Origin: Gimesia sp.
GTDB lineage: Bacteria; Planctomycetota; Planctomycetia; Planctomycetales; Planctomycetaceae
Direction of reading: 5' to 3'
NCBI GenBank assembly: GCA_002706765.1
Contig: PAJV01000076.1
Location: 540,073-604,072 of the forward strand
Length of the DNA: 64,000 nucleotides
How positions within the stretch are numbered: position 1 is the stretch's first letter; every line of letters starts with the position of its first letter. Of the stretch, positions 4,507 through 62,025 are shown piece by piece. The position numbers were made by a program, and so were the translations under genes. The notes under the pieces were generated by a model that was not told the DNA's origin, made no database searches, and worked only from the letters and a program-made list of their open reading frames with translations.

Positions 4507-5256
4507 GACAATCTATCTTCTGAGGACGGGAGAATACTGTTTTGATCAGATAATCAGCAACGCTTCTCAATACAAAAGCATCTCACATTTCACCACAGGC
4601 TCTCACAATCGATTAGGCTAACTCCCAGGCACTGGGAGGGGCACCGGTAAAACGAGACACAGTCGACGATGATCTCATGGTATGAGCGTTTGCAGATTTT
4701 CCTGTGTTTCAGTCTAAATTAACGGATTTCGGACGCCACGGAAAGTCACGCATCTACGGATGCCCATCAGGTCAGGCTTCTGTTCTCACCAGTTTGCCGG
4801 TCGTTTCTTTTGTCCCTTGTTTCTGCCACCCTTTCTGATTGTTGCAGCAGTCCCTGTGGTCAGCACCCATCTCCAGAATGCAGTGGCTGTGAGACATAAC
4901 TGGTTTTTCAAAATCGACTTATTTATCCTGCTTAGTGTTATGAAGCGAGGGCGAGTATGTTTGCTTTATCGTGCTTTCAGGTTTGCCTTCTGAATCGCCA
5001 TGATACTGTACTGGATGTGTACAGGCGGTGTTTTCTACGAAGGATCTTGAGAAAAATCCCAATATCGGCTGGTTAAAATGAAAAATGTGTGAACAATAGA
5101 CACAAATTGACTGACCCGGCATGTTGACCGAATCTTCACGATTGAGTTTGGATCCCATGCTGGTAACTGGTTTGAGCGATAACAAGGGGACCTGTTTGAA
5201 GCTCAGGCTCACTGATTCGACTGGTGATATTTTCACATCACTGGCGGTATTCTTGT
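4507..5256. other. Long intergenic region, divergent promoters
   Basis: About 750 bases separate the divergently transcribed genes at 4506 (minus) and 5257 (plus). A few open frames (about 4760-4993 plus, 4919-5401 minus) lack ribosome-binding sites and recognisable products, so they are not called. The region must hold both promoters. The only structured element noticed is the 17-base perfect dyad at 4622-4638. Confidence 0.5.
4622..4638. promoter_or_regulatory. Short perfect palindrome, possible operator
   Basis: CTCCCAG-GCA-CTGGGAG is a perfect 7+3+7 dyad in the divergent promoter region. It has no T run, so it is not an intrinsic terminator. It lies 116 bp upstream of the minus-strand ATG at 4506. 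A regulator-binding site is possible but unproven. Confidence 0.25.
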
Positions 5257-8411: not shown

Positions 8412-8776
8412 GTTATCTCTTTTGATAATAGTAGTCTGTTGATGCTGGACTGTTTCCAGTTTTTCAGTAGCGGCTCACGGGGTCAGGTCCATTTGGTCCA
8501 GGTATCAGAATCGATTTAGTGACGCTAGTGTTAAATGTGATGCGCTCGAAGTAAGAATGATGCTTAGTTAAGGAAATTCAGAAAGACTGCTGGAGTGTGC
8601 CTGAAACAGTCAGGATATCAGTGCGTTTAGGCCAACACCGCATCATTTCTATTCAAATTGGATAAAATAGATCATTTTTAACCGTATGTATTTTACCTGT
8701 GTTGCTTATGTTGTCTATAGTGTTGTGTGAGTAAGTGGCGTAACGTGTCAATTGCATGTAAATATGTGGAGTATTG
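8412..8776. other. Divergent intergenic region with degenerate repeat
   Basis: This 365-base region lies between the divergent methyltransferase (minus) and GT39-like (plus) genes. The left part contains a degenerate copy of the dispersed palindromic repeat (8452-8545). The rest is AT-rich and should contain the promoters of both operons. Confidence 0.5.
8452..8545 (+). repeat. Dispersed palindromic repeat, degenerate copy D
   Basis: The segment reads CCAGTTTTTCAGTAGCGGCTC on its left side and GTGACGCTAGTGTTAAATG on its right side. These match the left and right arms of the clear copies at 14150 and 15175 with several substitutions and a longer centre. It is oriented like those copies and sits between divergent genes. 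Confidence 0.55.
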
Positions 8777-14130: not shown

Positions 14131-14149
14131 TGATTGCGGTCCTCAGACT

Positions 14150-14241
14150 GTGTCCAGTTTTACTGTAGCGTCTCCAAAGCTATTTGAGCCGAGTATAACA
14201 GATTGAGAGACGCTCTGGTTAAATGCGATTCGCCCTGGAAT
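14150..14241 (+). repeat. Dispersed palindromic repeat, copy A
   Basis: The left arm CTGTAGCGTCTC and right arm GAGAGACGCTCTGG are inverted complements around AGCGTCTC (14167-14174) and GAGACGCT (14207-14214), separated by about 32 bases. Conserved flanks are GTTTT before the left arm and GTTAAATG after the right arm. The centre (TTGAGCCGAGTATAACAGA) also matches copies B and C. It lies between two minus-strand genes, close to the nitrilase start. Confidence 0.85.
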
Positions 14242-14334
14242 TCTGGATGATGGAAGAACCCATTCCAGGCAGAATACTGATTATAGGAGCCAGCAACGCA
14301 GGTTTCCATTGTCTCTTATCAAAGTGCCACTGGA

Positions 14335-15054
14335 TCAGAGTCGTTCTGTTGTTCTGAAGGGAGACGCCTGCTGGACCGGGGCATCGATGTTTTCAACGGG
14401 TGCGGCCTGTTGCGGTGGAATCAGCACACCGGAATCCACGAGTGTGATATAGGTCATCGTCAGCAGAATCGCGTAGGCGACGGCGTTGCCAAACAGGCCG
14501 TTTCCGAACCATTTGATGGCACTGCCCGAGGATTTCTTCAGACGAATGGTGATTCCCCTGCGTTCCACGCTGTAAACTTCATCCAGCACCAGGTGCGACA
14601 GAAAGCCGAGTGAGATTCCGCCCGCCATCAGAAACTTGACGGCATAAGAATCGCTGAAATAGGCCAGGAAGACGGTTTCCCCGGTGATGATCAGAGCCGG
14701 TATACTGTGGAACATGCCACGATGAACGGCAAATTTACTGAGGATTGCAGCACCACCGTAGCGGACCGCGGCGTAGGTGACGACAGCCATCAGGATGGCG
14801 TTGTCCGGGTCGGCCCCTTTGTGAATCATACACCGCATGGCAACGAAGGAAGCAACTGCTGCGGTGAGGGAGAACAGTTCCCTGATGGGACGGCCTGTTT
14901 CGGAATCGAGGTCAGGCAGCATACCGCCCACCCAGGTCAATACGCCAGCCAGAATTCCCTGCGTGGGCGTGAATCCCATGAACAGGCTGGCAATCGTTCC
15001 GTATCCGATTCCCAGTAAACCACTGACGCTGATATGTTCCTTATAACCGGCCAT
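14335..15054 (-). CDS. YdjM/DUF457-like membrane-bound metal-dependent hydrolase
   Basis: This 239-residue integral membrane protein has the signature of the YdjM/LexA-regulated hydrolase family. An N-terminal histidine sits in YKEHISVSG. The acidic motif GGMLPDLDSETGRP follows helix 2, then HRGMFHSIPAL, and a final H in SHLVLDEVYS. These His/Asp residues are thought to bind metal, and four to six helices separate them. The family is annotated as predicted hydrolases; the substrate is unknown, with phospholipids sometimes suggested. The start is supported by AGGGA about 9 bases upstream. The C-terminal 40 residues are Pro/Gln-rich and probably flexible. Repeat copies lie on both sides of the gene. 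Confidence 0.85.
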   Translation of the reverse strand: MAGYKEHISVSGLLGIGYGTIASLFMGFTPTQGILAGVLTWVGGMLPDLDSETGRPIRELFSLTAAVASFVAMRCMIHKGADPDNAILMAVVTYAAVRYGGAAILSKFAVHRGMFHSIPALIITGETVFLAYFSDSYAVKFLMAGGISLGFLSHLVLDEVYSVERRGITIRLKKSSGSAIKWFGNGLFGNAVAYAILLTMTYITLVDSGVLIPPQQAAPVENIDAPVQQASPFRTTERL

Positions 15055-15174
15055 CCTGTTCTTCCCTGAAGCTTACGGTTTCATTCCGGAGTCGTTGAAG
15101 CTAAGTCCTTGCAGGGGCAATCTTAGCAGACCGGGGGGGAATCGATCAATGGGAGTTCAAATCACTGGATTTGA

Positions 15175-15262
15175 CTGTGTTCCGTTTTGCTGTAGCGTCT
15201 CCCGGTTCATTGAGGACGAGTATATCAGAATGAGAGACGCACTGGTTAAATGTGACGCGATC
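15175..15262 (+). repeat. Dispersed palindromic repeat, copy B
   Basis: The arms CTGTAGCGTCTC (containing AGCGTCTC, 15194-15201) and GAGAGACGCACTGG (15232-15245) flank a centre TTGAGGACGAGTATATCAGA. GTTTT precedes and GTTAAATG follows, as in copy A. It is upstream of the YdjM-like gene and about 190 bp from copy C in the same orientation. Confidence 0.85.
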
Positions 15263-15370
15263 TGGAAGCAGAAATCAGCTTCCGGACCCTGATCTGGTTC
15301 AGACTGTTCATCTGCGAGCAGTCTGGTGAGATCGCGTAGAATCGGATGGGCTGTGCTTCCTCTGGACAGT

Positions 15371-15447
15371 GTGCCGTTTTTCTGTAGTGCCTCTGAGGAC
15401 ATGGGTGCCGAGTATCATAGTTTGAGAGACGCTACTGTTAAAAAAGT
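15371..15447 (+). repeat. Dispersed palindromic repeat, copy C
   Basis: The left arm is CTGTAGTGCCTC, with two changes against copies A and B. The centre holds GTGCCGAGTATCATAG and the right arm is GAGAGACGCTACTG (15424-15437) followed by TTAAA. The two arms are therefore no longer perfectly complementary. Copies B and C share orientation and may be a local duplication. Confidence 0.75.
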
Positions 15448-15578
15448 CCTTCGTTCTCGTGGGAAGTGCCGTTCGCTATCGGTCAAGCCGCCTGATGGCA
15501 TCCGCTGGACAAAGATTGTTTAACTACAGATCGCTTTTTTTCAGGATGAATTTTGATGACCGTTTTTATCAGCTTCCG

Positions 15579-30525: not shown

Positions 30526-30602
30526 ATATCAATAATCTAATGGAGAGAGATTAAGTAGCAGGTCAGGTGATACCTTTGGTGGAGACCAACTTTGTGCCTG
30601 TA

Positions 30603-30676
30603 TTCCGTTTTAGTGAAGCGTCTCCCATACTATCAGGACCTCACTGAGCAGGATGAGAGATACTTTTGATATTGGG
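30603..30676 (+). repeat. Dispersed palindromic repeat, degenerate copy E
   Basis: The left arm keeps AGCGTCTCCC (AGCGTCTC at 30617-30624) and is preceded by CCGTTTT. The right side keeps GATGAGAGA, but then reads TACTTTTG instead of CGCTCTGG. The copy has therefore lost much of its pairing. It lies between the lipoprotein stop and the BatA-like start. Confidence 0.5.
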
Positions 30677-30703
30677 GATACACTCTTGCCTGCGATCTTC
30701 TGC

Positions 30704-45305: not shown

Positions 45306-45797
45306 TCCTTGTTCTCCTTAAGGAAATGAACTGCTGAACTTTGTCTGATCTGGATTGTTTGATCGTAATTATTAACCGGAGTGGTCAGAAACGACAGGTG
45401 CGAATCGAAGGTCCTGGATGCTCCATCCCGACACACTTCAACTGGTTGAGAAAGGGTACTGCTTTCCGTGCTGTAACGTTCAATTCCACTCGCTGAATTG
45501 CAAGCTGTTTTTCGGTCAAAACAGGGGTTGAAAACTGTCTGAAACGCTACAGAATTCGAGTCTGTCAGACACTACAGAATTGTAGCCGGAAAGGGCTGGT
45601 TTCACAACTAATAATGGCCCTGAATTTTGGTGTCTTCCCAGGGTGAAAAACCTTGATTTTCAATAAGTTACGTTCTCAGAATTGTCATTGAGAGCCAGCC
45701 TGCAATTGCATAGAATAGATCGGGAGACGTTGACCGGCTCCGTAACTTTCTGTGCGAGAATATTTCCGCCTGTGTTATTTATAAAGATATTGTTCCT
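45306..45797. other. Divergent promoter region of gyrA and the kinase gene
   Basis: This 492-base region lies between the divergent gyrA (minus) and kinase (plus) genes. CTACAGAATT occurs twice, at 45547-45556 and 45572-45581, 25 bp apart. A perfect palindrome GTCTGTCAGAC (45560-45570) lies between them. Read on the minus strand, CTGTAGTGTCT and CTGTAGCGTTT resemble the left arm of the dispersed palindromic repeat. The two promoters are expected here. Confidence 0.5.
45547..45581. promoter_or_regulatory. Direct repeat with central palindrome, possible operator
   Basis: Two CTACAGAATT units spaced 25 bp apart flank GTCTGTCAGAC. The layout, with two to three helical turns between repeats in a divergent promoter region, would suit a regulator dimer. 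It may instead be a remnant of the dispersed repeat, because the reverse complement contains CTGTAGTGTCTGACAG. Confidence 0.35.
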
Positions 45798-57571: not shown

Positions 57572-58206
57572 AATTTCCCCTCTCTGTTTGCCTGTTTCTG
57601 CTGTAGACGGGCTCCAGTTTACGGTAGTTTCTCCGAGGTCATTTGGTCTTAAGCCTATGAGTTCGTGAGACTCCATGATGACCTGTCAGACGCTCTGGAA
57701 AAGACTTTTTTAGTCTATGCATTGTTTTTGGTGAACAATTTCCTGAGACCCCTTCTTATTTTTCTGTTTCAGCCGGAATAAGTAATGTAATCCGGCTTGA
57801 GAGTATAATCGTTCCATAAGATTTTTGAGGCTCAATATTTCCCGGTTGTGACTGGTGAACAGGAGATATGCCGAATTTTAAACCAACCACACATCAACTC
57901 CCTTTGGAGAGAGTCGTTAATTCTTTTTATGTTTCGCTTTAGGATTTGAATCGGTCCTGCGCACAGAATATGTGAGCGATGATTCTGGCTGAATGTTCAT
58001 ATTAATCTGGGGCCACAGCAGAAACTGTTCACTACGACTGATTTTAGAGGCTGGTTTGAACGTATCTCTTTAATTTTGATCTAAGATCGCCGGGAATTGA
58101 TGAAAGAGGGGGCAATTGCTATCCGGAAGTAAAATCTGGTTTGCCGACTTGCGATTGCGAACTAGCTTTTTAAGGGGAATTACCTTTAGAAAGTTGAGAT
58201 CGTATT
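57572..58206. other. Long intergenic region with a degenerate repeat
   Basis: This 635-base AT-leaning region lies between the protease and HD-GYP genes. A highly degenerate copy of the palindromic repeat family may lie at 57615-57700 (GGTAGTTTCTCCGAGGTCATT on the left, CAGACGCTCTGG on the right). A dyad GACTTTTTTAGTC near 57703 has too short a stem to be a terminator. No open frame with a credible product was seen. The HD-GYP gene promoter is expected in the distal half. Confidence 0.45.
57615..57700 (+). repeat. Dispersed palindromic repeat, highly degenerate copy F
   Basis: The left part GGTAGTTTCTCCGAGG and the final CAGACGCTCTGGAAAAG resemble copy A, but the spacing is longer and the arms no longer pair well. 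It is listed as a likely relative and is the least certain copy. Confidence 0.35.
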
Positions 58207-60616: not shown

Positions 60617-61900
60617 TCACTCACATTCCTGCCAGTTTCGCAGTAATCCCGCGACCAGGTGTCCCCCAAATCCGAACGATAGTTTCAGCGCGGTATTAAT
60701 GGGTCTGGAAACTGCAATTCGAGGTGTGTAGTTCAAATCGCATTGTGGATCAGGCTGATCCAGATTCAACGTCGCGGGAATGGTGTGGTCCCGCATGGCC
60801 AGTAAAGTGAATCCGAGTTCGACACTGCCAGCCGCTCCCAGGAGATGTCCCATTCCCCCCTTCAGACTGGAACACGGAATGGATTTCGCGAGTTCACCGA
60901 AAGCATTCTGCAGGGCACGGGTTTCGTACACATCGTTGATCTGGGTTCCGGTTCCATGCAGGTTGATGTAATCAAGTTCTTCTGCGGAGACCTCGGCCCG
61001 CTGTAAAGTATCAATAATCAATCGAGCCAGACTCTGGGCTGCGGGATCGAACTGCATCAGATGCGTCGAGTCAGCGCCCAGACCTCCCCCCAGCCATTCA
61101 GCATAGGGAGTTGCATTACGTTTTAGAGCATGCTCCAGTGATTCAAGGATCATGATTCCCGCTCCTTCGCCTACGACGAATCCATTTCTCCGACTGTCGT
61201 AAGGTTTGCAGGCCTGTTCTGGTGAGGCGAAGTCTGTAGCCAGTACCCCCATTCGTTGAAAGGAGCCCAGGACGGCAGGAACCAGGGATGCATCGGCGCT
61301 TCCCGCAATCACGGTATCACAAACCCCATCTCGAATTAAATCAGCTGCCCGCATGATGCTGGACAGACCGGTCGCACAGGCGGAAACCGGTGTTAAAGCC
61401 GCTCCTTTGAGACCATACCTGGCAGAGACCGCCTGGCTGCAGGCATGGGGCAGGCATTGCAGCCAGAAATCGGGCGGGATCGAATCGGATGGTCGCTGCC
61501 TGCTGTGAGTAGCGGCTGCCAGTTCGCCGTAGCCCGCGATTCCCCCTTTGCTGGATCCGATAACGCAACCCGCTGATTCACGGGAGAGTTGACCAGGATC
61601 GAGCCCGGCATCAGCAATGGCCTCGCTGGTCGCTTTCAGAGTCAAATCGAGGGACGGATCATTCTGGAAGGGAGAACGGGTCAGGGATGTTGAAGAGAGT
61701 TCGGGATCAGGTATGATCCCCCCTGCGATCGGCCGCCCCAACTGCTGTGACAGATTCTGAAGCAGGCTGGTGGCAGAATGCCCGGAAAGCAACTGTTGCC
61801 AGGACTGTTCACGCCCGACAGCATAGGGAGTAATCAGACCAATCCCCGTAATGACAACCCGCGGGGATGTTTGCTCTGTGACCAAAATCGTTGGTGGCAT
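60617..61900 (-). CDS. Beta-ketoacyl-ACP synthase, FabF-like (KAS II)
   Basis: This 427-residue condensing enzyme has the catalytic triad of the FabB/FabF group: C175 in SACATGL, H315 in HGTGTQ and H352 in GMGHLLGA, with K347 near the last. It carries VVITGIGLITPYAVG at the start and PYDSRRNGFVVGEGAG, as in FabF. These enzymes extend acyl-ACP by decarboxylative condensation with malonyl-ACP. No acyl carrier protein or other fab gene is adjacent, so it may serve fatty-acid, polyketide-like or hydrocarbon pathways. The first 12 residues before RVVITG are an extension. ACAGG about five bases upstream supports the ATG. Confidence 0.93.
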   Translation of the reverse strand: MPPTILVTEQTSPRVVITGIGLITPYAVGREQSWQQLLSGHSATSLLQNLSQQLGRPIAGGIIPDPELSSTSLTRSPFQNDPSLDLTLKATSEAIADAGLDPGQLSRESAGCVIGSSKGGIAGYGELAAATHSRQRPSDSIPPDFWLQCLPHACSQAVSARYGLKGAALTPVSACATGLSSIMRAADLIRDGVCDTVIAGSADASLVPAVLGSFQRMGVLATDFASPEQACKPYDSRRNGFVVGEGAGIMILESLEHALKRNATPYAEWLGGGLGADSTHLMQFDPAAQSLARLIIDTLQRAEVSAEELDYINLHGTGTQINDVYETRALQNAFGELAKSIPCSSLKGGMGHLLGAAGSVELGFTLLAMRDHTIPATLNLDQPDPQCDLNYTPRIAVSRPINTALKLSFGFGGHLVAGLLRNWQECE

Positions 61901-62025
61901 TAGCCTGTGTCCAGGTTAATTATTACGTTTCCAGGGGTACAGGGACCACAGGGAATCAAGGATACTGTTGTTATCGGGAGATGCGCTCAGGAACTGAACT
62001 CAGCAGACAGGAGAGCAAGGATTTA

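Follow-up and report, generated by a model that had tools for sequence, protein, structure and literature searches.

A RUP-like, IS630-type MITE family of about 90 bp in the intergenic regions of Gimesia

Introduction

What are the palindromic repeats that lie between the genes of this stretch of Gimesia DNA, and is the hairpin that each of them can form a functional structure or a consequence of how they move? A reading made from the sequence alone had described them as a new dispersed family and had named a MITE, a REP-like element and a structured RNA as its possible nature. In what follows, the window is the whole stretch of DNA that was analysed, 64 kb in length. The repeat family is an IS630-type MITE, a new family of a known kind, and RUP-like. 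More precisely, we are highly confident that the repeat is a non-autonomous MITE, about 90 bp long and bounded by imperfect terminal inverted repeats of 29 bp, that is inserted at YTAR sites and probably mobilised in the manner of IS630-type elements. No paper on a Gimesia MITE was found in the open-licence full-text literature. The family provides Gimesia with a described high-copy mobile repeat, which bears on annotation, on the calling of gene ends and on comparative genomics, and its position on stop codons, found in two sets of copies, is a testable case of a transposon sparing a gene-dense host.

Copies in the window

The family profile was grown from copies A, B and C over five rounds of profile search. 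These three copies are in direct orientation and, in a shared 95-nt register (starts 14146, 15173 and 15365), B is 78% and C 64% identical to A. Eight copies were found in the window, each with an nhmmer E-value of 5e-11 or better (Table 1), values that are flattered by the copies themselves being members of the final profile. All six copies of the sequence-only reading, A to F, are real members of the family and are recovered by the profile search (E 1e-31 to 3e-13); the partial arms it had suspected near 45547 and 63900 give no profile match even at E 10. As null controls, the reversed window yields nothing below E 0.05, and 464 kb of reversed sequence yield 0 matches at E ≤ 0.01. In addition, copy E and the copy at 61897 recur at orthologous places of two relatives. 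Both have degenerated, and since each is present in all three genomes, they are old. The earlier statement that all copies lie on the same strand is correct for A to F, but not for the copy at 4568-4669, which is on the opposite strand.

Table 1. Copies of the repeat in the window, with the state of the orthologous place in two related genomes, G009 and G002.
Feature	Position	Strand	Description	Orthologous place
Repeat copy	4568..4669	-	nhmmer E 5.7e-15; old; not listed by the sequence-only reading	Scored empty in G009 and G002, flanks there aligning poorly
Copy D	8443..8552	+	nhmmer E 6.2e-20; 100-nt variant carrying small insertions	Scored empty in both relatives, flank alignment very poor
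Copy A	14146..14235	+	GACTG...CGCCC, 90 bp; CA and TG at flanks	Empty in G009; two tandem copies in G002
Copy B	15173..15262	+	90 bp; TT and TG at flanks	Empty in G009
Copy C	15358..15457	+	nhmmer E 6.3e-19; diverged	
Copy E	30593..30693	+	nhmmer E 1.5e-13; degenerate	Occupied in G009 and G002; an additional fresh copy adjoins it in G002
Copy F	57602..57704	+	nhmmer E 3.4e-13; old, degenerate	
Repeat copy	61897..61996	+	nhmmer E 5.4e-11; degenerate; not listed by the sequence-only reading	Occupied in G009 and G002

Copy number and spread

A contiguous, unbiased stretch of 464 kb ending with the window contains 24 copies, from which a genome-wide load of about 400 copies can be extrapolated. 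In 0.85 Mb of the source genome, five profile rounds gave 62 non-overlapping copies, a sample biased by the 20 tiles beyond the 464 kb, which were chosen around BLAST hits. The concern that the genome might hold no further copies is thereby removed, many more having been found.

The family occurs in all 17 Gimesia genomes examined. Among 170 genomes, the covariance model has matches in these 17 and in G051 and G034; among 150 sampled genomes, a DNA search found the MITE in 11 of the genus and, as diverged copies or single ends, in four others. The fresh copies of G002 are 97–99% identical to the consensus. In that genome, left ends within three mismatches occur at 201 places (0 for the backward-pattern control), and a search with the right-end pattern gave 165 places. 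The plasmid and phage collections contained no match to the element.

Some individual loci deserve mention. G005, G006, G007 and G014 (L144, L151, L154 and L156) have one covariance-model match each and one to three matches by DNA search; G006 and G014 have a common locus, 95% identical over 3 kb, with which the copies of G007 and G005 have no flank in common. Left ends for which the scan gave no right end are present at L101 (G066), L102 (G006) and L103 (G007), matching at 26–28 of 31 positions. At L254 (1402-1610) of G002, a copy is split by about 100 bp of other sequence, perhaps another small element, which is absent from the ortholog L143 of G009.

Anatomy and target sites

The consensus of the element is TA-GACTG...GCGCTC-TA, with 90 nt inside the TAs. 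Its terminal inverted repeats are imperfect 29-bp arms, in which 19 of the 29 inverted positions are identical and nine inner pairs are contiguous, and the inverted repeats extend to the GA at both ends. The length is well conserved: both ends are recognisable in 86 of the 103 copies examined, and 70 of these 86 are exactly 90 nt long. Among the best 48 of 62 copies, the left dinucleotide is preceded by Y in 43 and the right dinucleotide is followed by R in all 48; most high-scoring copies are flanked by YTAR. TA is present on both sides in 41 of the 86 copies, and in 28 of 44 when the highest-scoring ones are considered.

Tandem copies in G002 have a period of 92 bp, with neighbours overlapping by three bases (TAG). 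Arrays of this kind, the units sharing TAG, lie at C1:5078040-5078318 of G002 and at the ortholog of window copy A; nested insertion and slippage are suggested as alternative origins.

Empty and occupied sites

The two genomes used for comparison, G009 and G002, represent sister species and are syntenic with the source genome at about 78–89% identity. Both flanks were found in 60 of 92 possible copy-by-genome comparisons, with 31 sites scored as empty, 17 as occupied and 12 as unclear; just 10 of the 31 empty-site comparisons, from seven copies, are well aligned on both sides. In all ten of these clean comparisons the occupied site exceeds the empty one by 90 + 2 bp. The best case is a G002 copy with a TA at each flank, the corresponding place in either relative carrying just one TA. 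The empty sites show insertion polymorphism between species, and they could partly reflect precise losses.

On target-site duplication, which had been proposed as a check, the findings are divided: every clean comparison has the two extra base pairs, but the flanking dinucleotides themselves agree in just one of the seven clean copies and in 43 of 86 copies overall (41 of them as TA/TA). The seven clean empty sites carry TA in three cases; the others are CA, TT, AA and GA. Of the natures first considered for the repeat, the MITE is the one favoured by the empty sites in relatives, the constant 90-bp unit, the YTAR sites and the IS630-type right end described below.

Relation to IS630-type elements

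The source genome contains truncated IS630-type genes with ends CTAGAGCGCGTCACATTTTAG, and intact-looking, TA-flanked IS630-type elements of about 1 kb are present in G005 and G008 (L048/L049). The G005 and G008 elements have two overlapping ORFs at a run of A, with a DDE_3 match (E 5e-33) and an IS630-type HTH. When counted by eye, the right end of the MITE is identical to that of L049 at 25 of 27 positions, and in a right-end scan the IS630 elements match at 24–25 of 31 positions, versus 15–19 in loci without related ends. The left ends agree at 17 of 27 positions, a value that chance matches in the scan also reach. Of 150 genomes sampled from the family Planctomycetaceae, 59 contain relatives of the C-terminal part of the transposase.

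The enzymes of an IS630-type transposon probably move the MITE. In the mechanism that we propose, an IS630-type transposase would bind both MITE ends, and the element would move by TA-targeted cut-and-paste; the hairpin would then be a by-product of the inverted repeats.

An autonomous element bearing both MITE ends was not found, nor was one found in G002, whose copies are the freshest. A protein search of G002 with the G005 transposase gave 0 matches, and 20 loci around unpaired-looking ends of this genome, among the matches listed, contain MITE copies only, some of them truncated or split, with no spacing of IS length. The mobilising enzyme has possibly been lost from G002. Two DDE_3 loci of G002, L041 and L044, were considered as the parent and rejected, these ends being absent from them. 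Inside the IS630-type element of L041, positions 540-1475 form an apparent extra insertion with CTAGAGG ends, which, from its ORFs, we take to resemble an IS5-family element.

Placement relative to genes and stop codons

Genes were called with a simple caller of our own, by which 81% of the sequence is coding. From 104 copies, five near a sequence edge were left out, and among the remaining 99 any overlap with a called gene is limited to 30 bp in 98, so the intergenic placement noticed in the window extends to the larger set. Gaps holding copies are convergent in 20 cases, divergent in 16 and co-directional in 62, compared with 76, 138 and 510, respectively, for all gaps of at least 50 bp (copy-holding ones included); copies are over-represented between convergent genes (p 0.004). 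Between co-directional genes (n = 62), the two orientations of the element occur 29 and 33 times, which indicates no preference.

In 19 of 86 copies, the neighbouring gene has exactly the element's terminal TAG as its stop codon, against a background of 4.35% for non-coding TA sites (p 4e-9) and of 8.5% for YTAR sites (p 9e-5). In a second set, made up of 24 loci of other or further genomes of the genus and 20 loci of G002, the same is true for 15 of 41 copies, the backgrounds being 2.7% (p 1e-13) and, for YTAR sites, 5.7% (p 3e-9). This second set is enriched in fresh copies, because its loci were selected either for being best matches or for having ends that looked unpaired. It also contains overlaps: L146 and L147 represent a single insertion shared by two sister species, as do L151 and L156, and L256 is also in the first set. 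Without L147, L156 and L256, 14 of at least 38 copies are on a stop codon.

The offset between element and gene end has a sharp peak, with 19 copies of the first set at −3 versus 10 at all other offsets below 12. In two cases with an empty site, the gene at the empty site ends in TAA at the aligned codon, versus a TAG that uses a base of the element; the lengths of the called genes differ in both (1101 versus 1017 and 1797 versus 1884). In a third case, the occupied gene ends in TAA and the gene of both empty genomes in TGA, with the length of 843 unchanged.

Both ends of the element begin with GA, so a copy that lands in the TA of a TAA or TAG stop codon rebuilds TAG. Such an insertion would restore the stop codon and may be nearly harmless to the gene, and copies would, for that reason, collect at these positions.

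The excess at stop codons might instead come from target choice by the transposase, through coupling to the termination of transcription or translation or through local sequence, and not from tolerance; this alternative rivals solely the last step of the explanation given above. The peak at the exact stop position argues for target choice, as does the persistence of the excess in both sets when YTAR sites alone are taken as background. Against it, the fresh copies have come through selection just as the old ones have. These data are compatible both with target choice and with the survival of insertions that do no harm; as an account of the excess, we regard target choice as rather unlikely, if deserving some weight. 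A composite reading, in which the element is adapted to stop codons as safe harbours, its GA ends and YTAR target restoring TAG on either strand and the transposase perhaps actively favouring such sites, and in which, in addition, the plus-strand hairpin is kept via G.U pairs while the palindrome decays, we judge to be improbable.

The hairpin as a possible structured RNA

The repeat could also be a functional structured RNA or regulatory hairpin, selected on one strand and mobile only incidentally. The consensus folds with −34.2 kcal/mol on the plus strand (z −4.3) and with −21.2 kcal/mol on the minus strand (z −1.9). The plus strand folds better because all six arm transition differences of the consensus are G.U on that strand. 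Of 128 distinct copies, 117 likewise have the plus strand as the more stable one, and so do the MITEs of G051 and G034, a bias that presumably reflects mostly shared ancestry.

Comparison with shuffled controls gives small excesses in the direction expected for a selected fold. For a 25-pair structure, 91.0% of cells are paired, versus 90.3% when shuffled (reached by one of 500 shuffles), the covariation score is 0.132 versus 0.119 (three of 500), and six pairs are changed on both sides, versus 2.8 (14 of 500). In 70 copies, 1623 cells are paired, versus 1616 in shuffles (33 of 500). Mutations spare the arms, the mean energy being −27.2 versus −24.5 with randomly placed mutations on the plus strand and −19.9 versus −18.2 on the minus strand. 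However, the controls for the 25-pair structure ignore relatedness, and related sequences alone could give a small excess; the cells changed on both sides are few (6 versus 3.1), and RNAalifold predicts no consensus pair.

Among the transitions in the arms of the first 70 copies, pair-keeping changes exceed pair-breaking ones by 73:37, and the loop is without such a bias. This bias is absent from 60 further copies, where the ratio is 31:40, or 31:28 by species consensus (58 copies). Sequence identity, and not the fold, was the criterion for choosing these replication copies, of which 58 came from the BLAST matches and two from another DNA search. The failed replication leads us to rate selection on the fold as low. 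On compensatory change in the arms, suggested earlier as a check, the findings are mixed and weak: a small excess over shuffles in pairs changed on both sides, and transition ratios that did not replicate.

The remaining observations also speak against a structured RNA. The element shows no orientation preference relative to genes, the folds of window copies A to C are not clearly more stable than those of shuffled sequences for either strand (z −1.40 to 0.64), and Rfam gives 0 matches at the gathering cut-off within the window. The structured RNA put forward by the sequence-only reading thus retains the small pairing excess over shuffles, but neither an RNAalifold pair, nor an Rfam match, nor a replicated bias, and we consider it very unlikely.

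Comparison with known systems

A REP/BIME-type origin, with mobilisation by a RAYT (REP-associated tyrosine transposase), can practically be dismissed: like these intergenic palindromic repeats, the element is short and present in many copies, and REPs have been reported in Planctomycetes, but it differs in size, end tags and enzyme class, its 90-bp unit, YTAR sites and IS630-type right end standing against the 20–40 bp and the GTAG or CGTC tag given for REPs (PMC3733652).

The Gimesia IS630 element (L048/L049) has the TA flanks, the right end (25/27) and an inner TAGCG in common with the MITE; unlike the MITE, it encodes a DDE_3 transposase, and the left ends are alike only at 17/27. Other Planctomycetaceae, namely G051 (L107-L111) and G034 (L104), contain MITEs whose two ends are of the same kinds as those of the Gimesia element. 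The MITE of G051 is 70–72% identical to that of Gimesia over its length, with CCATTTGG common to both in the centre. In contrast to the Gimesia element, the MITEs of G051 and G034 have a different interior and measure 94 and 105 nt, respectively, including the TAs.

The best-matching known system is RUP of Streptococcus pneumoniae, which, in the available parts of its descriptions, has a size of about 100 bp (107-bp unit), about 100 mostly intergenic repeats, ends resembling those of the IS630-family element IS630-Spn1, target sites containing TA, over-representation between convergent genes and a tightly folded predicted transcript (PMC3049150, PMC2229807). These parts of the two papers make no mention of a stop-codon position of RUP. 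Going by description, the Gimesia MITE is set apart from RUP by its length of 90 versus 107 bp and its planctomycete host, and no matching transposase was found in G002, the genome with the freshest Gimesia copies. By the same descriptions, the Gimesia MITE is like RUP in its size class, its intergenic location, its IS630-type right end, the TA at many of its sites, its excess between convergent genes and its tightly folding predicted plus strand.
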